A DNA stretch of 64,000 nt. It comes from Prosthecobacter vanneervenii (GTDB lineage Bacteria; Verrucomicrobiota; Verrucomicrobiia; Verrucomicrobiales; Verrucomicrobiaceae). Where the stretch lies: positions 248,001-312,000 of the forward strand of contig NZ_JACHIG010000004.1 of assembly GCF_014203095.1 (NCBI RefSeq), in the 5' to 3' direction. Positions 1,420-55,460 of the stretch are shown piece after piece (the first letter of the stretch is position 1; every line of letters starts with the position of its first letter). The position numbers were made by a program, and so were the translations under genes. The notes under the pieces were generated by a model. That model worked only from the letters and a program-made list of their open reading frames with translations. It was not told where the DNA came from and searched no databases.

Positions 1420-2904
1420 ATGCTGACCCGGCTTAGAATCAAAGGCTTCAAAAATCTCTCAGATGTGGAGGTGTTTTTTGGCCCCTTCACGTGCATTGCG
1501 GGTGCAAATGCGGTGGGGAAATCGAACCTTTTTGATGCCATTCGCTTTCTTTCCCTGCTAGCGGATATGAAGCTGGACGAAGCGGCACGTTCTATCCGGG
1601 CCGAAGACGATCGTAACGGAGACGTTCGCTCACTTTTCACTAATGACGGGTACGCCGTTGCCAAAGAGATCGAATTCGATCTGGACATGATTGTTCCTCG
1701 TGAAGCAGTGGATGAACTTGGACAGACTGGAGAAGCCTCCACTACCTGCCTCAATTACAAGCTGAGGATTGGTTACCGTGAAACTGCAGACGATCGCAGA
1801 CAGCTTGGCGAACTTGAGCTGTTGTTTGAGGAATTAAACTACATCACACACACTGATGCAAGAAAACGACTGCGTTTTCATCCTTCCAGGGCTTGGCTTG
1901 AATCGGTCATAGTTGGCCGTAAAACCAGCAAGCTCATTTCCACGCTGTCTGAAAGTGGAAAAACATTCGTGGTGCTGCATCAGGACGGTGCCGCGCGCAC
2001 AGGGCTTAATAAACGTGGTGTTGGCTACAAGCGTGTTGCACGGCAGCTTCCACGTACTGTGCTTTCTGCGGGTGATGCGGACAGCCCGACGGTTCTCTGC
2101 GCGCGTGTCGAATTGCGCAGCTGGGAATTGCTGCAGCTAGAGCCTTCTGCGATGCGAGAGAGTGACAGCATCAATCAATCAACTGGTGTGGATGCCAGCG
2201 GTGCTCACATGGCGGCGACGCTTTATGAATTGGGTCGCATACCACTCATTCCAGGAACCCCGGCTGATCCTGAAGCTGTTTATCAACGGGTAAGCAACCG
2301 TCTTTCAGAACTTCTGGGTGATGTTCGTGGTGTTGGGGTTGATGTGGATGAGAAGCGCGAACTTCTTTCCCTCTACTTGGTTGATCGCATGGGGGTCCGG
2401 ACTCCGGCTCGTTCCCTGTCTGATGGCACCCTGAGTTTTATCGCATTGGTCATCAAACAAATGGAAAGCCGTGGCAACAGGCTGCTTTGCATGGAAGAAC
2501 CTGAGAATGGTATTCATCCACGCAGGATACCAGCGATCCTGGATCTGCTTCAGGATATTGCAGTGGATGTCTCGTCAGCGGTGGATGATGCCAATCCGCT
2601 TCGGCAGATAATAGTTAATACTCATTCTCCATCAGTGGTTCAGCAGGTGCCAGATGAGTCGGTCCTTTTTGCCGAGACCGTTCCGTCATGGACTCCCGGT
2701 AGAAAGACTTTTGAGAGGCTCGTTTTTCGTATCTTGCCTGATACTTGGCGCTCCAAGGGTAACGATGACGAGATGATTGTAAAAAAAGCATCTCTGCTCG
2801 CATATTTGCGGGTGCCCGGCAAAAGGCGTGAATCAGAAGACGAGGAGCACAAGGAGCGTCGTGTCATTGACAGCGCGTATGTGCAGACAGTCCTTGAACT
2901 ATGA
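1420..2904 (+). CDS. AAA family (OLD/RecF-like) ATPase, first gene of AAA-TOPRIM pair
   Basis: ABC/SMC-type ATPase of the AAA_21 kind. Opening LTRLRIKGFKNL is typical of OLD/RecF-like proteins. Walker A is GANAVGKS at 28-35, the ABC signature LSDG at 333-336, Walker B LLCMEEPENG with Glu359/360, and the H-loop NTHSP lies near 403. The ATG at 1420 is preferred because family homology begins there; an in-frame ATG at 1342 lies inside the upstream kinase gene. The stop overlaps the next gene's start by ATGA, so the two are translationally coupled. Base composition is visibly more AT-rich than the neighbours, which suggests acquisition. The family commonly pairs with a TOPRIM-fold partner in defence loci; the function here is inferred. 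Confidence 0.88.
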   Translation: MLTRLRIKGFKNLSDVEVFFGPFTCIAGANAVGKSNLFDAIRFLSLLADMKLDEAARSIRAEDDRNGDVRSLFTNDGYAVAKEIEFDLDMIVPREAVDELGQTGEASTTCLNYKLRIGYRETADDRRQLGELELLFEELNYITHTDARKRLRFHPSRAWLESVIVGRKTSKLISTLSESGKTFVVLHQDGAARTGLNKRGVGYKRVARQLPRTVLSAGDADSPTVLCARVELRSWELLQLEPSAMRESDSINQSTGVDASGAHMAATLYELGRIPLIPGTPADPEAVYQRVSNRLSELLGDVRGVGVDVDEKRELLSLYLVDRMGVRTPARSLSDGTLSFIALVIKQMESRGNRLLCMEEPENGIHPRRIPAILDLLQDIAVDVSSAVDDANPLRQIIVNTHSPSVVQQVPDESVLFAETVPSWTPGRKTFERLVFRILPDTWRSKGNDDEMIVKKASLLAYLRVPGKRRESEDEEHKERRVIDSAYVQTVLEL

Positions 2905-3542
2905 ACGACGAGCAAAGGATGACGCGACGCTTTACACTGCTTGCAGACGGACCTGGAGACGAGGCTTTAATGCCTGTATTGCACTGGCTTTGGAAGGAAC
3001 ATCGTCCTGACGAGTTGTGCATAGGACACTTCGCCGATCTGGAGTACAGCAACCTCAAAAGCCGTGCACTCGAAGACAGGCTTGTGCCAGCACTGGATAT
3101 ATATCCTTGTGATTTGCTGTTTGTGCATCGTGATGCCGAAAGGGAGGGGGCTGAAAAACGAATGAGAGAAATTCAGGCTGCGATGGCTGCTAAGTTGGCG
3201 GCAGGCAGCAGTCCTCCTGTCGTCTGCGTGGTGCCTGTGCGCATGAGCGAGGCATGGATGCTTTTCGATGAAAGAGCCATACGCAAAGCTGCTGCGAATC
3301 CCAACGGAACGATGCGCTTGCATCTGCCTCCCATATCCAAGGTGGAGCAAATGCCTGATCCAAAAGCCAAGCTTCGCGAATTGCTACAAGAAGCGTGTGG
3401 TCTTCCCACTCAGCGTCTTCGTGGGTTTAATGCCTCTCGCGCTGCAAGGCTGGTAACTGAGTTTATCGAGGATTTTTCACCACTTCGTGAGCTTACTGCT
3501 TTTGCGCGCATGGAAGCAGAGTTCAAACGAGTGAAGCTTTAA
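2901..3542 (+). CDS. DUF4276/RloB-like TOPRIM-fold protein paired with the AAA ATPase
   Basis: A 213-residue protein recognised by pattern as the TOPRIM-like partner of AAA_21 ATPases. It opens with LLADGPGDEALMPVL, in the place of the acidic VEGxTE motif of TOPRIM proteins. CDLLFVHRDAEREG follows, in the place of the DxD motif, then VPVRMSEAWMLFDE with conserved Glu and Trp. It ends with DFSPLRELTAF, a segment I recognise from related proteins. Its ATG overlaps the stop of the ATPase gene. In studied AAA/TOPRIM pairs the ATPase senses infection and the TOPRIM protein is the nuclease effector. Whether this one cleaves nucleic acid is unproven, because its acidic residues deviate from classical TOPRIM spacing. 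It also shares the lower-GC composition. Confidence 0.75.
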   Translation: MNDEQRMTRRFTLLADGPGDEALMPVLHWLWKEHRPDELCIGHFADLEYSNLKSRALEDRLVPALDIYPCDLLFVHRDAEREGAEKRMREIQAAMAAKLAAGSSPPVVCVVPVRMSEAWMLFDERAIRKAAANPNGTMRLHLPPISKVEQMPDPKAKLRELLQEACGLPTQRLRGFNASRAARLVTEFIEDFSPLRELTAFARMEAEFKRVKL

Positions 3543-3550
3543 CCCTCCTC

Positions 3551-4582
3551 TCACACCACCCTCACTGCGGCCTGGGATTCCATGGCCTGCCATACGGCGT
3601 GCACCACGCGCATGTAGTTCATGCCTTCGCCAAAGTCGGGGCGGGGACGCGGGGCTTTGGCGTCGCGCACGGCGGCGATGAAATCGCGCTCCACCGTCCA
3701 GGTGCGTTGTCGTTCCGTGGGAACTGACACGGATTCCAGTTTGCCGCCGCGTTTGCCCAGCTGCAGGTCGTCTGTGTTGAAGTCATAGCACAGCGTGCCC
3801 TCGGAGCCGAAGATCCACAGCTTGTCCGTGGGTGCGTGCGCGGCCACGCCGCTGAAAAGCATCGTGGCCTCGATGCCGCTGCGGAATTTTGCCATCACAT
3901 GCACAAAGTCCGGGATGTCCACCTCCACGCCTGAGCGCTCGGGGATCACCACATTGCCGCGTGCCTCCACCTCCACGATGTGGCCCAGCCACTGCTGCAG
4001 CACCTCGGTGTAGATGCCCAGCGTGAGGATCTGGATGCCGCTCAGCTCTGACTGCTGGCGCCAGTGGACGGGCTTTGAGGCATCCAGCCAGGCGTCATTA
4101 AAGCTGTGCAGCAGCACCTGGTGCGGTTTGCCGATGGCGCCGTCTTCCAGCAGCTTTTTCACCAGCTCCCCGCCCTTCATGCCGTGGGGTGCGGGGCAGA
4201 TGGCGGTGACCAGCTCGGGGTAGCGCATGGATGCCTCCCACATCTGGTTGGCTTCCGGCAGTGAGGCAGCCATGCGCGCCTGGGTAAAGACGTGCTTGCC
4301 ATGCTGGAGTGCGTAGCACGTCATCTCCGCATGCATGTAGGGATGCGTGCCGATCCACACTACGTCCACATCGCGTGAGGAGGCCACCTCCTCCCAGCGC
4401 TCCACCGCCTGCGCTTCGGGGGCAAACTCCCGGCAGAAGGCCTCTGCGCTGGCCAGGCTCCGGTTGGTCACCTGCACGATTTGCACGCCGGGGATGGCGC
4501 GCAGGCCGGGCATGTGGCGGGATTTGACGATGCCACCGGCGCCGATGATGCCGATGCGGACGGGTTGCTCTGTTGCACTCAT
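3551..4582 (-). CDS. Gfo/Idh/MocA family oxidoreductase
   Basis: Predicted NAD(P)-dependent sugar or inositol dehydrogenase of 343 residues. The N-terminal Rossmann motif is GIIGAGGIVKSRH, followed by a segment resembling the EKP motif region (GKHVFTQARM), although the usual catalytic EKP Lys is not evident. The C-terminal half has the alpha/beta domain typical of the family. Start at 4582 (MSATEQ) places the Rossmann strand at residue 10; an upstream in-frame start at 4666 would add an unconserved leader overlapping the divergent MOSC gene. No signal peptide is seen, so it is cytoplasmic. It converges on the TOPRIM-like gene with only 8 bp between stops. The substrate cannot be read from the sequence. 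Confidence 0.85.
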   Translation of the reverse strand: MSATEQPVRIGIIGAGGIVKSRHMPGLRAIPGVQIVQVTNRSLASAEAFCREFAPEAQAVERWEEVASSRDVDVVWIGTHPYMHAEMTCYALQHGKHVFTQARMAASLPEANQMWEASMRYPELVTAICPAPHGMKGGELVKKLLEDGAIGKPHQVLLHSFNDAWLDASKPVHWRQQSELSGIQILTLGIYTEVLQQWLGHIVEVEARGNVVIPERSGVEVDIPDFVHVMAKFRSGIEATMLFSGVAAHAPTDKLWIFGSEGTLCYDFNTDDLQLGKRGGKLESVSVPTERQRTWTVERDFIAAVRDAKAPRPRPDFGEGMNYMRVVHAVWQAMESQAAVRVV

Positions 4583-4628
4583 GGTCGTATGAAGTGTGGC
4601 ACCTTTGGAGCCAACATCCAAGCCCCGC

Positions 4629-5087
4629 ATGCAAATCCTGCACATCTTCATCTCCCCCGAGCACATTTATGTGGGCCACCACGGCCTGCCCCCGGGCACC
4701 ACACCCATGACCGAGGTGCCCGAGGTGGAATGCGTGACCGGCAAGGGGTTGCGCGGCGACCGCTATTTCGGCTGGAAGGAGGATTTCAAAGGGCAGGTGA
4801 CCTTCTTTGAGCACGAGCAGTACGAGCGCTTGTGCGAGCAGTTCAGCGTCATGGGCGTGCCGCCTTCCGCCTTCCGCCGCAATATCATTACCAAGGGCAT
4901 CGACCTCAACACGCTCATCGGCACCGAGTTTGAGGTGCAGGGGGTGCGTTTTCTCGGTACACAGGAGGCCGCGCCCTGCCACTGGATGAACCAGGCCTTT
5001 GCTGAAGGCGCCGAGGCCGCGCTCAAGGGCCACGGCGGCCTGCGCGCCAAAATCCTCAGCGACGGCACCCTGCGCCCTACTTCATGA
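4629..5087 (+). CDS. MOSC domain protein
   Basis: A single MOSC domain of 152 residues, related to the C-terminal domain of molybdenum cofactor sulfurases and YiiM-like proteins. Visible markers are VTGKGLRGDRYFG near the start of the domain, FRRNIITKGIDLNTLIG in the middle, and the conserved Cys in APCHWM expected to bind sulfur or molybdopterin. The start at 4629 gives MQILHIFIS; a more upstream ATG at 4596 would add a poorly conserved stretch. The stop overlaps the next start (ATGA) with mobA, which supports a molybdenum-cofactor role. It may transfer or sense the cofactor; enzymatic activity is not shown by sequence alone. Confidence 0.88.
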   Translation: MQILHIFISPEHIYVGHHGLPPGTTPMTEVPEVECVTGKGLRGDRYFGWKEDFKGQVTFFEHEQYERLCEQFSVMGVPPSAFRRNIITKGIDLNTLIGTEFEVQGVRFLGTQEAAPCHWMNQAFAEGAEAALKGHGGLRAKILSDGTLRPTS

Positions 5088-5677
5088 CACCTCCACCCCT
5101 CCCCTTTGCCGCAGCCCTGCTGGCCGGCGGCCGCTCCACCCGCATGAAGCAGGACAAGGCCCTGCTGCACTGGCATGGGCAGGACCTGTGGCAGGCGCAG
5201 CTGCACAAGCTGCAGTCCATCGGTGCCGAGCGCGTGCTGCTCTCCTGCCGCAGCGAGCAGCCCCTTTACGTGAGTCCCAGCGAGGGTGTGGAGGTGGTGC
5301 ACGATCCCGAGGATGTGGATGAAGGCCCGCTGGGAGCCATCACCCGATGCCTGGAGCTGGTGCAGATGCCGCTGCTCGTGCTGGCGGTGGACATGCCCTG
5401 GATGACCGCTGCTTTTTTGCGCGAGCACCTTGTGCCGCATGCGGAGCCGGTGACAGGCTGCTTCTTCCGCGGCCCGCATGGAGATGAAACTCTCTCTGGT
5501 CTCTACGTGCCCGCCATGCTGCCGCTGATGCAGAAGGCGCTGTGCGAAAAGCACCTCGCCCTGCAGCCGATCATCGAAGCCGCTGTACACTCAGGACTGG
5601 CCGTGACTCACCCGCTGGAAGAGGCACAGATGCCCTTCTTCCACAATGTGAACACGCCGCATGATCTGAAGCATTGA
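5084..5677 (+). CDS. mobA: Molybdenum cofactor guanylyltransferase
   Basis: Predicted to attach GMP to molybdopterin, giving the guanine dinucleotide form of the cofactor used by DMSO-reductase-family enzymes. The nucleotidyltransferase signature AALLAGGRSTRMKQDKAL sits at residues 9-26, followed by the conserved acidic turn in VLAVDMPWM and the C-terminal NVNTPHDL typical of MobA. At 197 residues it has the normal length. It overlaps the MOSC gene by 4 bp and converges on rsmE with 8 bp between stops. No other cofactor biosynthesis gene or molybdoenzyme lies in the window. Confidence 0.9.
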   Translation: MTPPPLPFAAALLAGGRSTRMKQDKALLHWHGQDLWQAQLHKLQSIGAERVLLSCRSEQPLYVSPSEGVEVVHDPEDVDEGPLGAITRCLELVQMPLLVLAVDMPWMTAAFLREHLVPHAEPVTGCFFRGPHGDETLSGLYVPAMLPLMQKALCEKHLALQPIIEAAVHSGLAVTHPLEEAQMPFFHNVNTPHDLKH

Positions 5678-5685
5678 GGATGGAA

Positions 5686-6411
5686 TTACCTCAGCTCGTG
5701 TCCCAGAATCGCCAGCGTGGCGATGCCTGCCGTCTCGGCGCGCAGTACTAGCGGCCCGAGTGTCACCGGCACAAAGCCAGCCGAGAGAGCCTGCGTTTCC
5801 TCCTCGGGCGTGAAGTCTCCTTCAGGCCCGATCAGCACGGCCACGCTGTTTGGCTTGGCCACAGACAGCGCCTGCTTGAGCGTGCGCGTGTGCTCGCTCA
5901 GCGCCGGGATGAGCTTGCATTCGGCCTCAAACTTCAGCGTCTTGGAAAAATGCACCGGTGCATGCAGCTCCGGCACAAAGGGTGTGTGGCACTGCTTGGC
6001 ACTCTCGATCATATGCCGACGCCACTTGGCCAGCTTTTTCTCCGTCTGCGCTGCATCCAGATGAATCACGGTGCGCTCGGTGATGACGGGTTGGATGCTC
6101 GCAGCCCCTAGCTCCACCGCCTTCTCCAGCAGCCACTCAAAGGGCTCCGCCTTGATCAGCGCGGGCAGCAGATGGATCGAGGTGGCAAAGGGAGGCACCG
6201 CGCTCTCGCTGAGAATGCGCGCCTGCACCTCGGCTTTGGAGACGTGCGTGATCTCGCACACGGCCACGCGGCCTGCGCCGTCAAAGATCTCGATGCTGTC
6301 GCCGGGTTGCTTGCGCATCACCCGGCCGCAGTGCTGCGCCTCATCACCGGTCAGGGTGAGATGAGGCACGGTCCATTCGGAGGCAGGAAGATGAAAGCGC
6401 GGCAGGGACAT
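5686..6411 (-). CDS. rsmE: 16S rRNA (uracil-1498-N3)-methyltransferase
   Basis: SPOUT-class methyltransferase that methylates U1498 of 16S rRNA. The 241-residue length is normal. It carries the N-terminal PUA-like region (PRFHLP, then HCGRVMRKQPGD), the internal KAEPFEWLLEKAVELG motif, and the C-terminal SAM-binding knot IGPEGDFTPEE followed by LGPLVLRAETA. The start lies 1 bp downstream of the pepP stop, so the two are read from one transcript and are probably translationally coupled. This is a housekeeping gene with no oddities. Confidence 0.95.
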   Translation of the reverse strand: MSLPRFHLPASEWTVPHLTLTGDEAQHCGRVMRKQPGDSIEIFDGAGRVAVCEITHVSKAEVQARILSESAVPPFATSIHLLPALIKAEPFEWLLEKAVELGAASIQPVITERTVIHLDAAQTEKKLAKWRRHMIESAKQCHTPFVPELHAPVHFSKTLKFEAECKLIPALSEHTRTLKQALSVAKPNSVAVLIGPEGDFTPEEETQALSAGFVPVTLGPLVLRAETAGIATLAILGHELR

Positions 6412-6412
6412 G

Positions 6413-7702
6413 TCAGCGCTTCATGAGGGCTTCGATCTCATCCGCCTCGATGGGGATGTGCGCCATGAGGTCGATGTTTTCCTTCTCGCCGATGAAGATG
6501 TTGTTCTCCAGGCGCACACCCAGCTTCTCCTCGCGGATGTAGATGCCGGGCTCCACGGTGAAGACCATGCCGGGCTGCACGGGTTTCCACATGTGGCCCA
6601 CGTCATGCACGTCGATACCCAGCGGGTGGGAGGTCCCGTGCGGGAAGTATTTTTTATATGCGGGCTTTTCGGGATCCTGCTTGGCCACGTCTTCTTTCGT
6701 GATGAGGCCCAGCCCCAGAAGCTCCTGCTCCATGAGCTTGCCCACCTGCTCCTGATAGTCGCGGATGATGATGCCCGGGCGCAGGATCTTGCAGCACTCC
6801 TTGAAGACGCGCAGCACTGCGTCATACACCTGGCGCTGGCGCGGGGTGAACTTGCCGTTCACCGGGATCGTGCGCGTCAGGTCTGCGTTGTAGTTGCCGT
6901 AGTTGGCGGCCACATCCAGCAGCAGCATCTCGCCGTCCTGGCACTGGCAGTGGTTGGTGATGTAGTGCAGCACGCAGGCATTGGCCCCGGTGGCGATGAT
7001 AGGCGTGTATGCAAAGCCGCGGGCACGCTGACGGATAAACTCGTGGCAAAGCTCCGCCTCGATCTCAAACTCATGCACGCCGGGCTTCACAAACTTCAGC
7101 AGGCGGTCGAAGCCATCTCCCGTGATGCGGATGGCCTCGTTCAGCGCGGTGATTTCATGCGGGCTCTTGATGACGCGCAGCTCGTGCATCAGCTGCGCCA
7201 GGCGGTGATAGCGGTGCAGCGGGTACTCATGCTGGCAGCGCCGCGTGAAGCGCATCTCCCGCGTCTCCGTGGGGATGGTGGCGCGCGCGTGCTCGTTGGA
7301 GTTGAGGAAGACGTGGTCCGCCTGGCACATGACGGAGCGGAACTGTGTTTCAAAATCCTCCAGCCAGTGCACGCGCTTGATGCCGCTGCGCTCCATGGCC
7401 TGCGCCTTCGTCAGCTTTTCGCCCTCCCACACAGCGATGTGTTCGTTCGTTTCCCGCACAAAGAGCATCTCGCGCTGCTTTGGGTCTGCGGCATCGGGAA
7501 ACAGCACGAGGATGGTCTCCTCCTGGTCAATGCCGCTCAGGTAGAACTGATCGCTGTTCTGGATGAAGCTCAGTGAGCCGTCCGCATTCGTCGGCAGCAC
7601 GTCATTGGCATGCACAATCACCACCGACTGCGGCGGCAGCTTGGCGTAGAGGTGCTCACGGTTCGAGACAAACAGTTCGGCGGGCAGTGGTTGGTAGCGC
7701 AT
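6413..7702 (-). CDS. pepP: Xaa-Pro aminopeptidase (M24B)
   Basis: Cytoplasmic metallopeptidase that removes an N-terminal residue preceding proline. An aminopeptidase P N-terminal domain fills about the first 180 residues and the pita-bread catalytic domain the rest. Metal ligands are visible in order: Asp pair in DVAANYGNYNADLTRT, His in HGTSHPLGIDVHDVG, Glu in FTVEPGIYI, and Glu in RLENN. Start at 7702 (MRYQPLPAELF) is preferred over a TTG at 7717; neither has a clear Shine-Dalgarno. It is cotranscribed with rsmE (1 bp gap). Confidence 0.93.
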   Translation of the reverse strand: MRYQPLPAELFVSNREHLYAKLPPQSVVIVHANDVLPTNADGSLSFIQNSDQFYLSGIDQEETILVLFPDAADPKQREMLFVRETNEHIAVWEGEKLTKAQAMERSGIKRVHWLEDFETQFRSVMCQADHVFLNSNEHARATIPTETREMRFTRRCQHEYPLHRYHRLAQLMHELRVIKSPHEITALNEAIRITGDGFDRLLKFVKPGVHEFEIEAELCHEFIRQRARGFAYTPIIATGANACVLHYITNHCQCQDGEMLLLDVAANYGNYNADLTRTIPVNGKFTPRQRQVYDAVLRVFKECCKILRPGIIIRDYQEQVGKLMEQELLGLGLITKEDVAKQDPEKPAYKKYFPHGTSHPLGIDVHDVGHMWKPVQPGMVFTVEPGIYIREEKLGVRLENNIFIGEKENIDLMAHIPIEADEIEALMKR

Positions 7703-7741
7703 AGGAAGGTAGGGCAAGCGTCCTGCTTGCGGCAGCGCCGA

Positions 7742-7763
7742 AATTGCACGCGGCTTCGCAATT
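7742..7763. other. Small hairpin in pepP/pseudoprotease gap
   Basis: A 6-bp stem (7742-7747 pairing with 7758-7763) lies between the stop of the protease-like gene and the start of pepP, next to a GCAAGC/GCTTGC repeat at about 7714-7738. There is no T-run, so it is more likely an intergenic repeat or weak transcript-end structure than a classical terminator. Confidence 0.3.
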
Positions 7764-7771
7764 GCACCACC

Positions 7772-8857
7772 TTATTTCGCCAGCACTGCCTTCGGCGGGT
7801 GGCGATCGGCGTGGATCCATTGCTGGGTCTCAGGCCAGAAGACTTCCACGGGCAGGGCAAAGGTGGTCACGCGGTCCACGCGGGCGATGTTGATGCCCAC
7901 GATCTTGCCCTCCAGCGTGGCGACCGGGCCGCCCATGTCTGTGGGCAGCAGGGGGATGTCGTGCTGCAGGACTTCGGGGAAGTTGTCGTTGCGCAGGGAG
8001 ACGCCGCCGTTGGCAAAGTCCTCGCCGTTCCAGTTGTCCAGCACCTTGGTGCGGCTGGCCAGGCGCACGCGGCAGGTTTCCTCCTGCTTCTCGCGCTGAA
8101 TGCGCAGCTCCAGGGTTTCGCCCGGCTGTCGCTGTTTGATGATGTCATGCACGCGCTGGAAATCAGACGCGTTTTCTCCTGCGATGCTCAGCAGCACATC
8201 CCCCTCCTTCAGGCCGGCGGCTTCGGCGGGGCTGTCGCTGGCCACGCCGACGATGCGTACTCCCTTGCCGGCTTTGGCGGGCTTTTCCTCCATGCGGATG
8301 CCCATGGCGGCGCCTTCGCCACGAATGCGGCGGGTCCGGGCGCTGACGATGCCCAGGCGTGTCTCCGTGCCGGCATGGGCCACACTGCACAGCCATTGCC
8401 CCAGCGGCAGGGTGCGCGCGGCAGCCTCGAGTGATGCCGGATGCAGGCCGGTGATGCCCACCGCCTGGGCCAGCACCAGGTCCAGGCGGGGCTCGCGGTG
8501 CACCTCACGGAGGTCGGCTTTGCGCCCGTCGCTGAACTTGATGCGCGTTTTCTCTAGATCCGGCACCTCGCTGGCCTTCATGAGGACATACCCGTCATTT
8601 CCGACAATGGTGGCGGTGCCAATCGTGCGGCCCAGCAGGCTCTCCACACGGGCGGCGCATCCGACCGTGTGAGGCTTGAGATTTTCAATGGCTGCCAGGG
8701 TGTGTTTGCCGTTTGTGCGGTCTTCAGGTGGCAGCGTGGGGCGGGAGGGGTCGGCATGCAGCAGCGGGTTGAGCAGGAGAAGAAAGAATGCCGGAAGCTC
8801 CAGCGCACAAATCAGGGCCGGTCGCTTGCTGGCAGAGCTGGTGTTCCCCTTCGTCAT
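7772..8857 (-). CDS. Exported HtrA/trypsin-like pseudoprotease with internal PDZ
   Basis: Secreted protein of 361 residues (hydrophobic stretch about 15-34) with a degenerate chymotrypsin/HtrA fold. The histidine position reads LMKAS rather than LTAAH. The acidic residue may be Asp126 (RLDLVLA). The nucleophile loop that should be GNSGGP reads TDMGGP at about 306-311, so Ser is Met. A PDZ domain (about 186-262) sits between the GIVSARTR strand and the nucleophile loop, that is, inside the protease fold rather than after it. It lies 28 bp downstream of an intact HtrA-like protease on the same strand. A non-catalytic partner or regulator of that protease is likely. The fold call is firm; the role is inference. 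Confidence 0.85.
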   Translation of the reverse strand: MTKGNTSSASKRPALICALELPAFFLLLLNPLLHADPSRPTLPPEDRTNGKHTLAAIENLKPHTVGCAARVESLLGRTIGTATIVGNDGYVLMKASEVPDLEKTRIKFSDGRKADLREVHREPRLDLVLAQAVGITGLHPASLEAAARTLPLGQWLCSVAHAGTETRLGIVSARTRRIRGEGAAMGIRMEEKPAKAGKGVRIVGVASDSPAEAAGLKEGDVLLSIAGENASDFQRVHDIIKQRQPGETLELRIQREKQEETCRVRLASRTKVLDNWNGEDFANGGVSLRNDNFPEVLQHDIPLLPTDMGGPVATLEGKIVGINIARVDRVTTFALPVEVFWPETQQWIHADRHPPKAVLAK

Positions 8858-45898: not shown

Positions 45899-45990
45899 GC
45901 CTCTAAAATACTCGGAATGAAGGGGCCAGGTCAATCCTGCTCTTTTCACCCTTGATCCCCCGCCTGAATCAGCGCAGGGCTGCCTGCTCC

Positions 45991-46461
45991 GTGAACAAAG
46001 AAACCGTCCTCGCTCAAATCGTCTCCGTCCTCAGCACCGAGCTCGCCACCCTCACCCGTGCCGCGCAGGGCTCCTTTGCCGCAGCCACAGACCCCGACAG
46101 CAAGGCGGAAAACAAATACGACACCCGTACCCTCGAGGCCTCTTACGTCGCCCGCGGTCAGGCCCAGCGCGTGGCCGAGCTTCAAGAGGCCGTGCGTGCC
46201 TTCGGCGCATTGTCAGGAAACACCCTCGAGTCAGGTGCCGCCATCACACTCGGAGCCCTCGTCACCTTGGAAACTTTCGGCGAACAAACACACTACTTCC
46301 TCGGTCCCTTCGCAGGCGGTACGGAGGTTGTGCATGCAGGCCAGGAAGTCGTCGTCATCACCCCCGCATCCGCCTTGGGTCAAAAACTCATCGCCAGGCG
46401 GGCAGGGGACACCATCGCCATGCGCCCCGGCCTTTCTGCAAAGGTGACCGCAGTGGCTTGA
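45991..46461 (+). CDS. GreA/GreB C-terminal domain-like protein
   Basis: A 156-residue protein starting at GTG 45991 (MNKETVLAQIVSVLSTELATL). An N-terminal helical region includes KAENKYDTRTLEASYVARGQAQRVAEL, a motif shared by small GreAB-like proteins in many bacteria. The C-terminal half is the FKBP-like Gre domain: VVVITPASALGQKLIARRAGDTIAM. It lacks the acidic-tipped coiled coil of true GreA, so it probably binds RNA polymerase without stimulating cleavage in the usual way. An in-frame TTG at 45952 lies upstream. Confidence 0.82.
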   Translation: MNKETVLAQIVSVLSTELATLTRAAQGSFAAATDPDSKAENKYDTRTLEASYVARGQAQRVAELQEAVRAFGALSGNTLESGAAITLGALVTLETFGEQTHYFLGPFAGGTEVVHAGQEVVVITPASALGQKLIARRAGDTIAMRPGLSAKVTAVA

Positions 46462-46467
46462 TCACGC

Positions 46468-47520
46468 CTAGCAGTCACACCCGCAGCATCCACATCCGTC
46501 GCCGTCGCAGGGATTGCAGTCGATCATGGAACTCCCGCCTCTGGTCCATCCGGGGCGGCAGCAGTCACAGCAGTCACTGCAATCGCCGCAGTGGCACCCA
46601 TCGCATTTGTCCCAGCACGAGCGTTTCCGCCGGGTGCCTTCAATGGGTGACTGCACATGCTTCGTGCCTTTCTTCGTGTCTCCCGCCACCTGCACCACCC
46701 GCGCTTCCGCACCAGCGATCAGCACCGTCTGCAGCAGGTCGCGATGTCGCCGCAGCGGCAGGGCATCAAACGCACACCGCAGGCTGGCCAGTGCCTGCTC
46801 AAGCTTAGGCAGTAACGCCGCCCGCCGCCCCACGAGATCAGGAAAGGCATGCAGCGGATTGAACTGTCCACGCTTCTTGTCCCGCGCCCAATCCTCCCAG
46901 GCATCCTGCGCGTAGATGAGAAAACCCAGGCTCTCACCGAGTTGATGCAGCAGCGGTTTCGCACCCGGTGCACCCGACACCTGCGCCAGGTGCCCCACGA
47001 TCTCACCATACGCCGCACACGTCGGCCTGGCGCATTCATGGAGGCTGGCCGATGAATGCTCAATGTCAGCCTGTCCGGCCATCCAGCCGCGAACGTCTTG
47101 CACCGGAAAACGCATCGCATGCAGCAGACCCAGCGCGTCGCCGATGGGCCTGTCGAGCGCTCTCGATCCCACACGCGCCGCATGGCGTCGCCACCCCCGC
47201 TCATCCTGCGCATCGTCATCCAGCTTCGCGCTCAGGCCGCAGACAGTCACAGCGGCGGTGTATTGCAGCACCGGGCTGTCCGCCACGAGATCACGCGGCG
47301 TGGCAAATGCATTGCAACACGTCGTCCGGCACAGCACCGGCGGTGCTTCCGCCAGGGCGGAACCCAGCAGCGTCAGAAAAGCACTGTCCCGGTTCACCAG
47401 CCAGCGCGCCCACGCGCCATAGTGACGGTGCAGACTGGTGCCCAGACCGCAGAAGTGTGCGCGGTACAGAGAGGCTGCCTTCTGGCAGCACATGGCAGGA
47501 CCTGGGAGATGGCCGAACAT
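46468..47520 (-). CDS. DUF5685-family protein with cysteine-packed C-terminal tail
   Basis: A 350-residue DUF5685-type protein (mostly known from Actinobacteria, no established function). It opens with the family motif YRAHFCGLGTSLHRHYG. Two acidic segments, LDDDAQDE (101-106) and AQDAWEDWARD (from 205) ahead of GQFNP, resemble the metal-binding DDxxD and NSE motifs of isoprenoid synthases; that is my inference. The last 49 residues hold 16 cysteines in closely spaced CC and CxC patterns (302-350), a metallothionein-like tail. It lies 46 bp downstream of a CarF-type desaturase gene on the same strand, so the two are probably cotranscribed. Confidence 0.75.
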   Translation of the reverse strand: MFGHLPGPAMCCQKAASLYRAHFCGLGTSLHRHYGAWARWLVNRDSAFLTLLGSALAEAPPVLCRTTCCNAFATPRDLVADSPVLQYTAAVTVCGLSAKLDDDAQDERGWRRHAARVGSRALDRPIGDALGLLHAMRFPVQDVRGWMAGQADIEHSSASLHECARPTCAAYGEIVGHLAQVSGAPGAKPLLHQLGESLGFLIYAQDAWEDWARDKKRGQFNPLHAFPDLVGRRAALLPKLEQALASLRCAFDALPLRRHRDLLQTVLIAGAEARVVQVAGDTKKGTKHVQSPIEGTRRKRSCWDKCDGCHCGDCSDCCDCCRPGWTRGGSSMIDCNPCDGDGCGCCGCDC

Positions 47521-47566: not shown

Positions 47567-48172
47567 TCACCCCGCCCGCCGCATCTCCACGATCCACGCC
47601 GGCGCTGCTCCCTGGCCGGGCACTGACGTGTCCGGCTGCCGCTTCAGCCCCACCGTGTGCTTCAGAAGCCACTCCAGACCTTCCCAGAAGCGCACCGCAT
47701 CCAGCACCGGATTCAGCACATTCGTTACCGGGCAGTAATGCACATCCTTCGGGTTGGTGTGATGCACCGCATGATGCTGCGGCGTCTGAAGTATGCGCAC
47801 ATCCTGCAGCCATGAAATCACCCGCCCGTTCTCCTTCCGCGTGCGGTGCGCCCACTTGTGCACCTCGTTCGCATTCCCGCCCACCAGCGCAAACAGCCAC
47901 ACATGCCACGTCAGGCAGCCCAGCCACGCCGCCGCGATGATGAGCATCCCCATCGTCATCACCAGCTCCTTGTTGCTCTCCCACCACGTGTTGTGCGTCA
48001 TGTGCCGTGGCAGGTGATGATGCACAATGTTCGGCCTGCCCAGCCACCGCCCCAGCCACGGCGTGTCCTCCCGCACATACGCGTCCTCAAACCAATGAAC
48101 CAGCCCCGCCGCAAAATCCGCCGCCAGCACCACACCTGCTGCTTGTAGAGAGAGTAAGATAAGGTCTTTCAT
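47567..48172 (-). CDS. CarF/TMEM189-like lipid desaturase
   Basis: Membrane di-iron desaturase of 201 residues, related to the plasmanylethanolamine desaturase CarF/TMEM189 that makes the vinyl-ether bond of plasmalogens. The conserved histidines are all visible: HWFED (His26), HHHLPRHMTH (51-60), HKWAH (105-109) and QHHAVHH (133-138), with three or four hydrophobic segments between. The start at 48172 (MKDLILLSL) is preferred over an upstream start at 48202. It is first of a two-gene unit with the DUF5685 gene. Plasmalogens are known in some anaerobes and myxobacteria; a different lipid substrate is possible. Confidence 0.85.
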   Translation of the reverse strand: MKDLILLSLQAAGVVLAADFAAGLVHWFEDAYVREDTPWLGRWLGRPNIVHHHLPRHMTHNTWWESNKELVMTMGMLIIAAAWLGCLTWHVWLFALVGGNANEVHKWAHRTRKENGRVISWLQDVRILQTPQHHAVHHTNPKDVHYCPVTNVLNPVLDAVRFWEGLEWLLKHTVGLKRQPDTSVPGQGAAPAWIVEMRRAG

Positions 48173-48290
48173 GACCCCGCACCTCTGTCTCAGCCTTCGC
48201 AAATCAGGATATTGATAGTCTTGAAGCTGCGATTGAGGGGATCAATGGAACGGCCACAGACGCCATCAAGTCATGAACGGTCCTGGTTGT

Positions 48291-49031
48291 TTAATACAAC
48301 AGGTCGAGTTTTATCAGCGTGTTGATCCTGGCTTCGGTGTTGTCGAAATAGAAGTGAGCATCGATCGGGTTCAGCCATCCGGTGCTGTCCTGGATGACAT
48401 TGTTGGGATGCAGATCAAAGACATCCACTTCTCCAACCAATGGGTCATCAAAGGTGAAATTTCCTCCAAGTGATCTTGGGTATGGGTCGCGCAGATTGTG
48501 ACGAAGAAGGCCTGCTTTGAGTTCTGGCCACTCGGGGTGGATTCCGTTGATATAAGGCTGTGTAATGACCGTGTGGAAACGACTGCCCTCCGTAAAAACC
48601 CCTTCAAGCTGGATGTCATCGGCAAAGAAATGATTGGAGAGCAGCAGGTCGGTCAGATAGTCGAATAAAGACTCCGTGGCCAGCATGTGCGCATCGGCAA
48701 CTTTCATGACACGGCCTGTCTCGGGAATATAAGCCACCCGATGCTCTTTTCCGCCTTTCATGGGAAAGGCACCAAGTCTTGCTCGGACGTCTGCTGAATC
48801 GAGTTGAAGGCCTGTGCTCTCAATAAAAACGCTCAAGGTACGGATTTCATCGTCAATTGATTGATCCGCACTTTCTCCATGGTCACCACGCCTTGCGTCT
48901 GCAAGGCTCTTCGCCGCGCTTCGGAGAAGCTCTTGCGAACCACGGAAAGATCCGAGGCTGTTTCCTGAGTCGGCTTTTGGGTGGGTGTACTTTTCTTGTT
49001 CAATATCCCACTTTGCCTCATTAGCATGCAC
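48291..49031 (-). CDS. Polyvalent-protein-type kinase-fold protein
   Basis: A 246-residue protein starting at a GTG. It fits the Ser/Thr/Tyr kinase found in polyvalent proteins of phages and mobile elements: HRVAYIPETGRVMK with a candidate ATP-binding Lys110, VITQPYINGIHP, then DLHPNN (Asp206, His208, Asn210) as a catalytic-loop equivalent and PIDAHF (Asp224) as a DFG equivalent. Such domains normally sit inside huge mobile-element toxin proteins; here it is stand-alone with an 85-residue N-terminal region. It is lower in GC than its neighbours and lies by itself between two other transcription units. Function and substrate unknown. Confidence 0.65.
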   Translation of the reverse strand: MHANEAKWDIEQEKYTHPKADSGNSLGSFRGSQELLRSAAKSLADARRGDHGESADQSIDDEIRTLSVFIESTGLQLDSADVRARLGAFPMKGGKEHRVAYIPETGRVMKVADAHMLATESLFDYLTDLLLSNHFFADDIQLEGVFTEGSRFHTVITQPYINGIHPEWPELKAGLLRHNLRDPYPRSLGGNFTFDDPLVGEVDVFDLHPNNVIQDSTGWLNPIDAHFYFDNTEARINTLIKLDLLY

Positions 49032-52757: not shown

Positions 52758-55460
52758 TTACGCGCGCCGCCGCCGCAGCATGAGGCCTCCCAGGGCCAGC
52801 AAGAGCAGGCTGGCGCGGCCAGGTTCGGGGACGACGGCGATGTTCCCAGAGGTGGTGAACTGGCTCACATCCCAGATCAGACCGCTGGCGCTGATGTCCG
52901 GCAGGTCAAACTGGCTGCCGTTGTCGCCGCTCCCATCGCGGTAGTTGGTGCCCACGGAGAAATTGCTGAAATCCGTGGTCAGCAGGGCCGACCAGTCCAG
53001 TAAGTTGAAAACATCCCCCGCATGCGGGGTGTAGCCGCTGGCCAGCACGACGATGTTCCCGGCCACGGTCAGCGTGCCACTGCTGCCGTTGAAGACCAGC
53101 CTGTCATGCCCGCCCACGCCTGTCACGGAATTCAGCCAGGTGTTGTAGCCCGCGCTGCCCACCGCATTACCCCCAAAGTTTCCATCGCTGGCGGTGGCTG
53201 TGGTCAGGTCGAGAGAGATCTTGGAGCCGGCCGCCAGATTATACGAGGCCGTGGAGACAGGGGTGAAGGTCAGCGTGCCATGGCTGGCAGCCGTCGTGCC
53301 ATCACCTGCGTAAAGGGTGGCGCTGGCGCTCAGTGTGAAGCTGCTGCCCCGTACCACCCCGGTGCCGGAGAGGCTGGCGTTGGCGGCCACAGTCACCGCG
53401 CCTGTTCCCGTCTGTCCCACACCTGCCTTGCCCACCTGCAGCGTGCCTGCGTTTACGCTGGTGGCGCTCGTGTAGGTGTTCGCCCCGCTGAAAACCCACG
53501 TGCCTGTCCCCGTTTTGTTGACGGCAAGCGTGTTTGACAGCACGCCCTGGACTTCCCCGGAGCCGGAGCCCGTCATCGTGAAGGTGTGGTTGGTGCTGTC
53601 CGTGGACGCGGCGTTCACATTACCCTGGATCAGAAGGCTCCCGGCCGCCGCATCCAGCGTCAGTGTAGCACCCACCGTGGCGCGCACAGAGCCTGCCCAG
53701 GTGTTGTTTCCAGACACGTTTTCCACGTAAGGCGTGATCACCGACTCTCCAGTGACGGTGATGCTGTTTCCCAGCTGCAAATGGCCGGTCGTGGAGGAAA
53801 TCAGGACACCATTGCCCGTGGAGCCCAGCGCACCATTGCTCAGCACCAGCAGATTGCCCGCACTGACAGTGACCAGCCCGGAAAACGTTCCGGTGCCGCT
53901 TAGCGCCAGGGTGCCAGCCCCTGCTTTGGTGATTCCAGTGGCAGTGCTGCCATCCGCGATGCCTCCGCTCAGCGTCAGGGTGCCTGCCGTGACGGTGATG
54001 GTGCGCGTGGTCCCTGCTGCCGTGCCCAGACTGACAGCACCCGTGCCGAGATCCAGCGAGTTGGTGAGCGTGGCGGTAAAGTCTCCGTTGATCACAATGG
54101 CGTTGCTGTTCGCGATCGCCACCGCCGCTCCGCTGCTGTTGCCCAGCGTGCCTCCATTGATGGTGAAGGTGCTTGCGGTGGCACCCAGGGCGGTGCTGCT
54201 GTTTACGTTGAGCCCGCCTTGATTGAGCGTCAGGCCGCCAGTGAAGGTGTTGGTGCCGCTCAGGCTCTGCGCAAACGAGCCCGTTTTGATCACCGAAAGC
54301 GCTCCGCCGCCAGTGCCATCCGCCAGGCTGCCGGCAAACACGGCGTCCGCAGTAGAGTTGATAGTCAGAGTGGCGGCGGTGGCATTTTGATTGCGCACGG
54401 TGCCAGCCCCTGCTCCCGCTGTGGAGGCCAGCCCGCTGAGGGTGATGGAGTTGCCGTTGAGCGAGAGGCTTTTCACCAGGGTGCTGCTGGCAAAGGTCAC
54501 CTTGTTGGGCGTGGTGGAGTTCAGCGCCCCTGCGCCGTCGATGCGTACGTTCGTCACATCGACCGACAGCCCGCCGGTGAAGGTGTTGTTTCCTGCCAGC
54601 GCGATTGTTCCCGTGCTGGTCCCCTGGGTGCCAAGGCTCAGCGTGCTGCCGGCGGTGGACTCACCGATATTCGAGCTGATAACTGAGGCGACGGCGCTGG
54701 TGTTTTGCGTAATCAGCGTACTGCCTGCCAGTGTGATCGCCCCGGAGAGCGTGAGGTTGTTCACATCCAGGCGGATGGCCCCGCGCCCTCCGGCACCCGA
54801 GCCGCTCAGGGTAAAGGGCACCTGCCAGTTGCCGCTGGCACCCAGCACCAGCGTGGTGTTCGTGCCCACGTTCACACTCGTCAGCGTGGCGGAAGGCAGC
54901 GAGTTCACACTATTCACCTGCACAAACAGCCCGTTGGTGTCTGCCGACGTGAGCGAAAAGGTGCCGGAGAGCGTGGAGGCGCTGCCAATGGTCACGAGCG
55001 CAAAGGCGCCAGTGGCTTTTTGCAGGGTGATGTTGCTGCCGCTGAGCGTCGAATTGATCGTCAGGCGCGAGTTGAGCGAGCTGGACCCGTCCTGAACCGT
55101 GATCGCGGAACCGGAGGCGAGTGAGATCGTGCCCCCCGTCAGGGTGTAAGCCGAAGTAACTGCCCTGAAAATCAATCCATTGGCATTCACCGTGCCAGAA
55201 ACGATGATCGTGCCGCCTGCTCCGCCTGCACCTATCGCTGCCGTATTTCCCGCTGAGTTCGACCAAGTCTGGTTCTGCTGCGGCGTTGTTTCATCAAACC
55301 AGTTGCTGGCACCATCCGTCCAGTTTCCAGAGCCATCTTGGGCACCGTCTGTACCTTTGTTCAAATCCCACACAAAGGTGGCTCCTCGGGCTTGAAAAAC
55401 GGACATCGCTCCGAAAAGGAGAGCGGCCAGTGTCAGATGGAGGTTTTTGAACAAGAACAT
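52758..55460 (-). CDS. PEP-CTERM protein with autotransporter-type beta-strand repeats
   Basis: A 900-residue exported protein. The signal ends near SVFQARG, residue 26. The mature part is a long beta-helix of autotransporter-associated strand repeats, rich in Gly, Thr, Ser and Asn (GNNTFTGGLSVDVTNV, GTNTFTGGLTLNQGGL, GANTYTSATSVNAGTLQVG and similar). The C terminus is a PEP-CTERM sorting signal: VPEPGRASLLLLALGGL followed by RRRR, for exosortase processing. There is no outer-membrane beta-barrel translocator. It is a probable surface or matrix protein. The exosortase is not in the window. It is divergent from the transglutaminase-DUF2126 gene. Confidence 0.92.
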   Translation of the reverse strand: MFLFKNLHLTLAALLFGAMSVFQARGATFVWDLNKGTDGAQDGSGNWTDGASNWFDETTPQQNQTWSNSAGNTAAIGAGGAGGTIIVSGTVNANGLIFRAVTSAYTLTGGTISLASGSAITVQDGSSSLNSRLTINSTLSGSNITLQKATGAFALVTIGSASTLSGTFSLTSADTNGLFVQVNSVNSLPSATLTSVNVGTNTTLVLGASGNWQVPFTLSGSGAGGRGAIRLDVNNLTLSGAITLAGSTLITQNTSAVASVISSNIGESTAGSTLSLGTQGTSTGTIALAGNNTFTGGLSVDVTNVRIDGAGALNSTTPNKVTFASSTLVKSLSLNGNSITLSGLASTAGAGAGTVRNQNATAATLTINSTADAVFAGSLADGTGGGALSVIKTGSFAQSLSGTNTFTGGLTLNQGGLNVNSSTALGATASTFTINGGTLGNSSGAAVAIANSNAIVINGDFTATLTNSLDLGTGAVSLGTAAGTTRTITVTAGTLTLSGGIADGSTATGITKAGAGTLALSGTGTFSGLVTVSAGNLLVLSNGALGSTGNGVLISSTTGHLQLGNSITVTGESVITPYVENVSGNNTWAGSVRATVGATLTLDAAAGSLLIQGNVNAASTDSTNHTFTMTGSGSGEVQGVLSNTLAVNKTGTGTWVFSGANTYTSATSVNAGTLQVGKAGVGQTGTGAVTVAANASLSGTGVVRGSSFTLSASATLYAGDGTTAASHGTLTFTPVSTASYNLAAGSKISLDLTTATASDGNFGGNAVGSAGYNTWLNSVTGVGGHDRLVFNGSSGTLTVAGNIVVLASGYTPHAGDVFNLLDWSALLTTDFSNFSVGTNYRDGSGDNGSQFDLPDISASGLIWDVSQFTTSGNIAVVPEPGRASLLLLALGGLMLRRRRA

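Follow-up and report, generated by a model that had tools for sequence, protein, structure and literature searches.

Cysteine-rich tails of DUF5685 proteins, in cis or on a neighbouring J-domain protein, and a probable isoprenoid-synthase-like core

Introduction

The window analysed here, the whole 64,000-nucleotide stretch of Prosthecobacter vanneervenii DNA, raises the question of why a 350-residue protein encoded on its reverse strand (46468–47520, ATG start) should end in a string of cysteines, and what kind of domain carries that string. The ORF had been assigned to DUF5685 in an initial annotation and indeed matches Pfam PF18937 over residues 14–274 with an E-value of 3.7e-30 and a score of 105.7 bits, against a curated Pfam cut-off of 26.7. 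The Pfam entry assigns no function to its members, of which the window protein is one, and the match stops at residue 274, so that the Cys tail lies outside it. The literature searched gives no function for DUF5685 and leaves PF18937 unnamed; the one mention of the family is an entry in a list of the superfamilies represented among hypothetical proteins of C. difficile (PMC9403866). No second DUF5685 gene was found in the 6.66-Mb genome of the host. The parts of the gene and its product are the following.

46468–47520, reverse strand: DUF5685 gene, an ORF of 350 residues (Pfam PF18937, E 3.7e-30)
46672–47520, reverse strand: core domain, residues 1–283, predicted to be all-helical and isoprenoid-synthase-like (alignment of 38 sequences, AlphaFold2 core model, fold neighbours)
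47449–47451, reverse strand: Cys24 of the FCGL motif (38/38 aligned sequences, 44/47 overall)
47386–47406, reverse strand: R39..N43-x-D45 motif, RWLVNRD (invariant in the 38 aligned; of 47 sequences, R in 41, N in 42, D in 43)
47314–47319, reverse strand: Cys68-Cys69 of TCCN (each in 36/38)
47200–47226, reverse strand: first Asp motif KLDDDAQDE, residues 99–107, D102xxxD106 (D102 in 47/47, D106 in 45/47)
46855–46905, reverse strand: second Asp motif DAWEDWARDKKRGQFNP, residues 206–222, with D206, D210 and D214 (D206 and D214 in 47/47, D210 in 45/47)
46618–46671, reverse strand: variable linker, residues 284–301, K/R-rich in relatives (mean of 8.5 K/R vs 4.6 D/E in the 30 residues before the tail cysteines, 36 proteins)
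46471–46617, reverse strand: Cys-rich tail, residues 302–350, with 16 Cys (sequence, shuffles, relatives)

A cysteine-rich tail conserved in two phyla

The initial annotation had drawn attention to 16 cysteines in the last 49 residues, and sixteen of the 26 cysteines of the protein do fall between residues 302 and 350. None of 20,000 shuffles of the protein placed 16 Cys in any 49-residue stretch, the maximum being 13. The tail recurs in Verrucomicrobiota relatives with 33–91% core identity, and for this reason it is not an artefact of the reading frame.

Among Verrucomicrobiota sequences with a readable C-terminus, a Cys-rich tail is present in 38 of 41, where duplicate records of a species were counted once and L032 and L036 were left out because their contigs stop short of the tail. 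All 34 distinct complete sequences in the alignment have 8–23 Cys beyond the core, and four further C-termini are tailed (L193, L194, the fragment L195 and the interrupted gene L196). The tail-less sequences are L080, L079, in which 6 Cys scattered over the last 40 residues were scored as no tail, and L006, a contig-edge fragment that runs on into a different C-terminal region. The four Actinomycetota sequences (L044, L046, L168 and L167) are all tailed, the weakest tail being that of L167 with 6 Cys in its last 22 residues, and none of the six clostridial-type sequences is (L043, L045, L169–L172). All five motif Asp residues are kept in L079, L080 and the fragment L006 without a real tail; L080 is without R39, N43 and D45, and L079 without N43. 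Three side observations concern these sequences: genome G453 has two DUF5685 genes, the tailed L023 and the divergent, tail-less L080; Sel1/TPR-looking repeats, judged by eye, stand in L006 (11–1183) where the Cys tail would be; and L167 lies on a 69-kb Nocardia plasmid beside TPR and recombinase genes.

In 36 proteins the tail has a median of 46.5 residues and 16 Cys, and its pooled composition (36.5% Cys, 16.2% Asp, 13.6% Gly) is acidic and polar. The region from −6 to +9 around the first tail Cys contains a Trp in 24 of the 36, against 0.23 expected per protein, although the proteins are kin and the expectation is crude. A distal block, DC.PCDG..C, is found repeatedly across several genera. 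When the codons of six close species (the window and L011–L015) are compared, raw non-synonymous/synonymous counts give 1.53 for the whole tail vs 0.63 for the core, so the tail evolves faster, and within it the 17 columns with Cys in at least three rows have a non-synonymous fraction of 0.16 vs 0.34 in the other tail columns. The tail is thus fast-changing with its Cys columns kept, and Cys content is held while spacing drifts.

These properties bring in the main rival to the reading that we favour below, namely that the tail, joined to an isoprenoid-synthase-like enzyme, would bind Zn, Cu or Fe as a metal-thiolate domain of metallothionein type and would store the metal or deliver it, perhaps to C24, C68 and C69, or would sense metal or redox state. 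The dense, hydrophilic CC and CxC pattern with its drifting spacing argues for such a domain, as does the conservation of the core cysteines, and the polar, acidic character of the fused tails together with their excess of Cys suits it. Against it, 17 tails compared with Pfam gave no match at E up to 10, neither to a curated metallothionein family nor to any other, and a profile of the tail has no convincing relative in the PDB (best E 0.82). On balance we consider the metal-thiolate domain rather unlikely.

The tail profile, which misses some true tails, matches a single gene in the host genome, that of DUF5685. Its occurrence on other proteins was considered and rejected: across 189 genomes of the host's order, 14 of 16 matches lie in DUF5685 genes and the others are L187, a short frame within a larger unrelated ORF, and L188. 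Since true tails are missed by the profile (that of G455 is unmatched), absence elsewhere is weak evidence.

Conserved residues and fold of the core

Thirteen residues never vary among the 38 aligned cores: C24, G25, L26, R39, N43, D45, D102, E154, G199, D206, A207, D210 and D214. The acidic motifs noticed in the initial annotation are both present (residues 99–107 and 206–222), and in 47 sequences their five Asp residues are near-invariant. DUF5685 thus has both the first Asp-rich motif and the second metal motif of the class I isoprenoid synthase superfamily; in its i, i+4, i+8 spacing the second motif agrees with the NSE/DTE triad of terpene synthases.

The core probably belongs to the isoprenoid-synthase superfamily, with a distant likeness to squalene/phytoene synthases, as judged from the sequence comparisons and predicted models that follow; taken singly, none of these matches, whether by sequence or by fold, reaches significance. 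A DUF5685 profile run against PDB sequences gave seven matches, none significant, of which the best four (E 0.04–0.19) and the seventh are trans-polyprenyl diphosphate synthases, while a prefoldin subunit and a designed helical bundle make up the rest. The two alignments printed have both Asp motifs in register. In hhalign, DUF5685 and an SQS_PSY profile built from sequences of the host's order score 33.8 (P 5.6e-4, own probability of hhalign 30%) with both Asp motifs aligned in the same order. None of 60 column shuffles reaches this score (maximum 21.2), the reversed alignment gives 16.1 and a citrate synthase control 12.7. Polyprenyl synthases reach 23.9 with 1 of 60 shuffles at or above, and this match is therefore weak. 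The Pfam model PF00494 (SQS_PSY) matches none of the 38 DUF5685 cores at E up to 1.

AlphaFold2 models, for which the input alignment held 6 close sequences, have a pLDDT of 45.8 and pTM of 0.50 for the whole protein and a pLDDT of 54.0 and pTM of 0.59 for the core alone. The best Foldseek E-values are 0.021 (whole model) and 0.027 (core model), none being ≤0.001. By title, isoprenoid synthases account for 47 of the 50 matches listed for the whole model and 46 of the 50 listed for the core, the exceptions being three for the former and four, all UbiA-type membrane prenyltransferases, for the latter. In VIA-align, which re-aligns Foldseek's own candidates, all 50 matches listed for each of the two models are isoprenoid synthases by title. 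The best is 3apz_A for both, with Z 13.2 over 204 residues (3.3 Å) for the whole model and Z 13.4 over 224 residues (4.8 Å) for the core, and the matches listed for the low-confidence core model span Z 13.4–11.2. A fold that is not among the matches listed is not thereby excluded. Because helical models can score Z 13–14 without kinship, the fold assignment rests on the agreement of separate lines.

The initial annotation had likened the domain to isoprenoid synthases; the fold evidence points there, on models that are weak (pLDDT 46 and 54) and with no match that is significant by itself. The contrary outcome that it had named in advance, an unrelated fold and no Cys tail in close relatives, did not emerge from the analysis.

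Distribution and genomic neighbourhood

DUF5685 was found in 10 of the 387 genomes sampled from the phylum and in 34 of 386 from the order; a second order has it in 6 of 12 genomes and a class in 1 of 197. Its occurrence is patchy within the genus, with 10 carriers, the host included, and at least 20 genomes without the gene. Thermotoga maritima is the only carrier among 14 named control genomes, and the family is known from at least three phyla. No relative was found in the viral contigs scanned. Three of the clostridial-type sequences, L169–L171 (MT835652.1, MT835850.1 and MT835749.1), come from phage-collection records titled 'Bacteriophage sp.' that have bacterial-looking housekeeping genes, e.g. 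glmS (by eye).

Directly upstream of the window gene lies a CarF/plasmanylethanolamine-desaturase-like gene (47567–48202, reverse strand; Lipid_desat, E 2.7e-37). As an operon partner it was rejected: it is adjacent in L011, L012, L013 and L015 (plus duplicate records), and a search around the remaining DUF5685 genes, some truncated by a contig end, did not find it. It is treated as shared synteny. Neighbours common to the close species include this desaturase, a pilin, a GreA-like protein, pyruvate carboxylase and others. In the window, a gene for a small GreA/GreB C-terminal-like protein (45952–46461, forward strand; weak match, E 0.015) stops 6 bases short of the 3' end of the DUF5685 gene, with which it converges. 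A gene at 48291–49031 (reverse strand), beside a pyruvate-carboxylase-like gene (by eye), matches Kinase-PolyVal (E 3.1e-10), a domain of polyvalent proteins that are usually tied to mobile elements, and 52758–55460 (reverse strand) encodes a 900-residue repetitive protein with a PEP-CTERM-like sorting tail at its end (by eye).

The neighbourhood bears on a second alternative, in which DUF5685 would be an ordinary small-molecule terpene or prenyl synthase and its tail a mere anchor or stability tag, unlinked to catalysis. The intact DxxxD, the Asp triad and the SQS_PSY-like profile match are all consistent with this, and in one clostridial-type locus (L045, 1–849) two genes for making isoprenoid precursors, ispD and ispF, are located about 4–5 kb upstream of DUF5685. 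However, the four window neighbours that were scanned include no terpenoid gene, the neighbours common to close species look like plain synteny, and the Cys tail returns in trans beside tail-less enzymes, as described below. An ordinary synthase is, in our judgement, quite unlikely.

A cysteine-tailed J-domain protein beside tail-less DUF5685

In four clostridial-type loci (L043, L045, L169 and L170) DUF5685 is tail-less with intact Asp motifs, and the gene directly downstream encodes a J-domain protein in each case (DnaJ match, E 9e-14 to 5e-21, 4/4). The C-termini of these J proteins are Cys-rich, with 9, 7, 8 and 5 Cys, respectively, in the last 26 residues, compared with 0–1 elsewhere, and are rather hydrophobic, more so than the fused tails. 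This hydrophobic character and the low number of Cys, just 5–9, argue against the metal-thiolate domain, and with the Cys tail on the J neighbour a role as lipid acceptor or anchor is, in our judgement, at least as likely as one in metal or sulfur handling. As a separate observation, a small membrane-protein gene lies directly upstream of DUF5685 in L169 (2577–2987) and L170 (401–796); the C-terminal part of the L169 product matches zinc-ribbon-type domains weakly (E 0.007–0.035).

The remaining clostridial-type sequences, L171 and L172, belong to DUF5685 by Pfam (E 2.7e-31 and 4.7e-30) and are tail-less, and tblastn finds no J gene in their 6.7- and 5.2-kb stretches. Both have lost C24, R39, N43, D45, E154 and D210, and L171 has also lost D106. 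With L079, L080 and the fragment L006 as exceptions, DUF5685 thus has the tail fused to it, has it on the neighbouring protein, or lacks it along with part of the motif.

Searches with two J-protein C-terminal regions, one per collection, and with one whole J protein against the phage records found the Cys-tailed J family at the same four loci; the whole protein also matched the J domain of two Acinetobacter phage records. When 37 Verrucomicrobiota and 4 Actinomycetota loci were searched with the J proteins, one of the former and none of the latter had J-domain genes close to DUF5685. In the single case, L047, an Hsp70-like gene (by eye) is directly followed by a J-domain gene, and another J-domain gene converges on the tailed DUF5685 gene (7720–8727, reverse strand) at a distance of 39 bases (2159–7680, forward strand, for the Hsp70-like and J-domain genes). 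The J proteins of L047 have no Cys tail, and none of the three J proteins of the host genome has a Cys in its last 40 residues. The link between DUF5685 and J proteins is strong in the few clostridial loci reached and rare elsewhere. What is new is the Cys tail kept across two phyla and the Cys-tailed J protein beside tail-less enzymes.

A third alternative takes its cue from these chaperone genes: the tail would be a module of disulfides or thiols through which the protein oligomerises, is cross-linked or binds clients, and the core would have the isoprenoid-synthase fold but either no enzymatic activity or another mode of action, working with J-domain chaperones. The J-domain neighbour at the four loci, the J-domain and Hsp70-like genes of L047 and the fast evolution of the tail are consistent with it. 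The near-invariance of the five motif Asp residues argues for catalysis, and the cytosol is reducing; we regard a thiol module as distinctly improbable.

A proposed enzyme and acceptor

The simplest reading of a prenyl-diphosphate-type active site that comes with a Cys-rich segment, whether in cis or in trans, is that of an enzyme and its acceptor. The reading that we tentatively favour, and give somewhat less than an even chance, is that DUF5685 is a Mg2+-dependent enzyme acting on a prenyl diphosphate and that the Cys tail, in cis or in trans, is its partner and probably its acceptor. The soluble enzyme would bind the prenyl diphosphate through D102xxxD106 and D206xxxD210xxxD214, the Cys-rich tail would be a dedicated partner segment and most likely the acceptor, and prenyl groups would be put on tail Cys residues or on the Trp often found at the start of the tail. 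The prenylated tail would then hold the protein at the membrane. Enzyme and acceptor would be fused in Verrucomicrobiota and Actinomycetota, and in Clostridia the acceptor would be the Cys-rich C-terminus of the J-domain protein from the adjacent gene. The fold that this mechanism calls for is supported but not proven, and we infer the substrate, the transfer to the tail and the anchoring.

In favour of the enzyme and acceptor are the near-invariant Asp motifs, the profile and fold comparisons that point to isoprenoid synthases, the occurrence of the tail both in cis and, at four loci, in trans, the loss of D210 and of five other conserved residues in the two clostridial-type sequences L171 and L172, which lack both tail and J gene, the chaperone genes beside the tailed DUF5685 of L047, and ispD and ispF upstream in L045. 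ComQ and PalQ, described below, are a precedent. Eukaryotic J proteins are lipidated at C-terminal Cys, Ydj1 being farnesylated and cysteine string protein palmitoylated. On the other side, 16 Cys far exceed the need of one acceptor, the fused tails are more metallothionein-like than membrane-like, and the second Asp motif is intact, whereas that of ComQ is degenerate. Furthermore, the Cys-tailed J gene comes from four loci and J genes elsewhere are rare (1/37, 0/4) and tail-less, the five Asp persist without a real tail in L079, L080 and L006, and the fold has neither a match significant alone nor a match to the Pfam SQS_PSY model.

In a more specific form of the proposal, which we think unlikely, DUF5685 would be a bacterial S-prenyltransferase of proteins, with an isoprenoid-synthase fold, and would lipidate a Cys string: in Verrucomicrobiota and Actinomycetota its own, in Clostridia that of a J-domain chaperone. 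With the enzyme and acceptor, a functionally unassigned family found in at least three phyla gains a testable mechanism. Its likeness to isoprenoid synthases, together with the Cys-packed tail, hints at a means of attaching lipids or metals to proteins that is undescribed in the literature searched. Those searches found nothing on a bacterial 'cysteine string' with J-domain and prenyl, and no metallothionein-like domain fused to a prenyl-synthase-like fold. Should the tail be the acceptor, bacteria would have Cys lipidation by an enzyme of isoprenoid-synthase fold.

Comparison with known systems

In the alignment with squalene/phytoene synthases (PF00494) both Asp motifs of DUF5685 stay in register and keep their order (hhalign P 5.6e-4), and DUF5685 differs from these enzymes in its extra N-terminal Cys and R..N.D motifs and in its Cys tail. 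A precedent is given by ComQ and PalQ, enzymes of the isoprenoid-synthase superfamily that prenylate a Trp of a peptide (PMC5331326, PMC10853753, PMC13290415), the peptide being encoded beside the enzyme (PMC5331326, PMC10853753). The second Asp motif of ComQ is degenerate (PMC5331326, PMC10853753). In the parts available, PMC13290415 reviews eukaryotic enzymes and two bacterial families that act on peptides, and names no bacterial enzyme of isoprenoid-synthase fold acting on Cys. DUF5685 probably shares the superfamily with ComQ and PalQ, and it shares the first Asp motif with ComQ. Unlike these enzymes, which act on the Trp of a small peptide, it is accompanied by Cys-rich tails, in cis or on a J protein, and the second motif, degenerate in ComQ, is intact in DUF5685.

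Metallothioneins are small, free-standing, Cys-dense proteins with CC and CxC patterns; the DUF5685 tail shares the density and both patterns but is fused to a larger protein. The eukaryotic cysteine string protein consists of a J domain and a C-terminal Cys string that is palmitoylated, and the clostridial neighbour genes resemble it in encoding a J domain followed by a C-terminal Cys-rich string (4/4). To our knowledge, no isoprenoid-synthase partner is known for the eukaryotic protein. If DUF5685 were an S-prenyltransferase that lipidates a Cys string, the system would be a bacterial counterpart of the eukaryotic cysteine string proteins, built with an unrelated enzyme.
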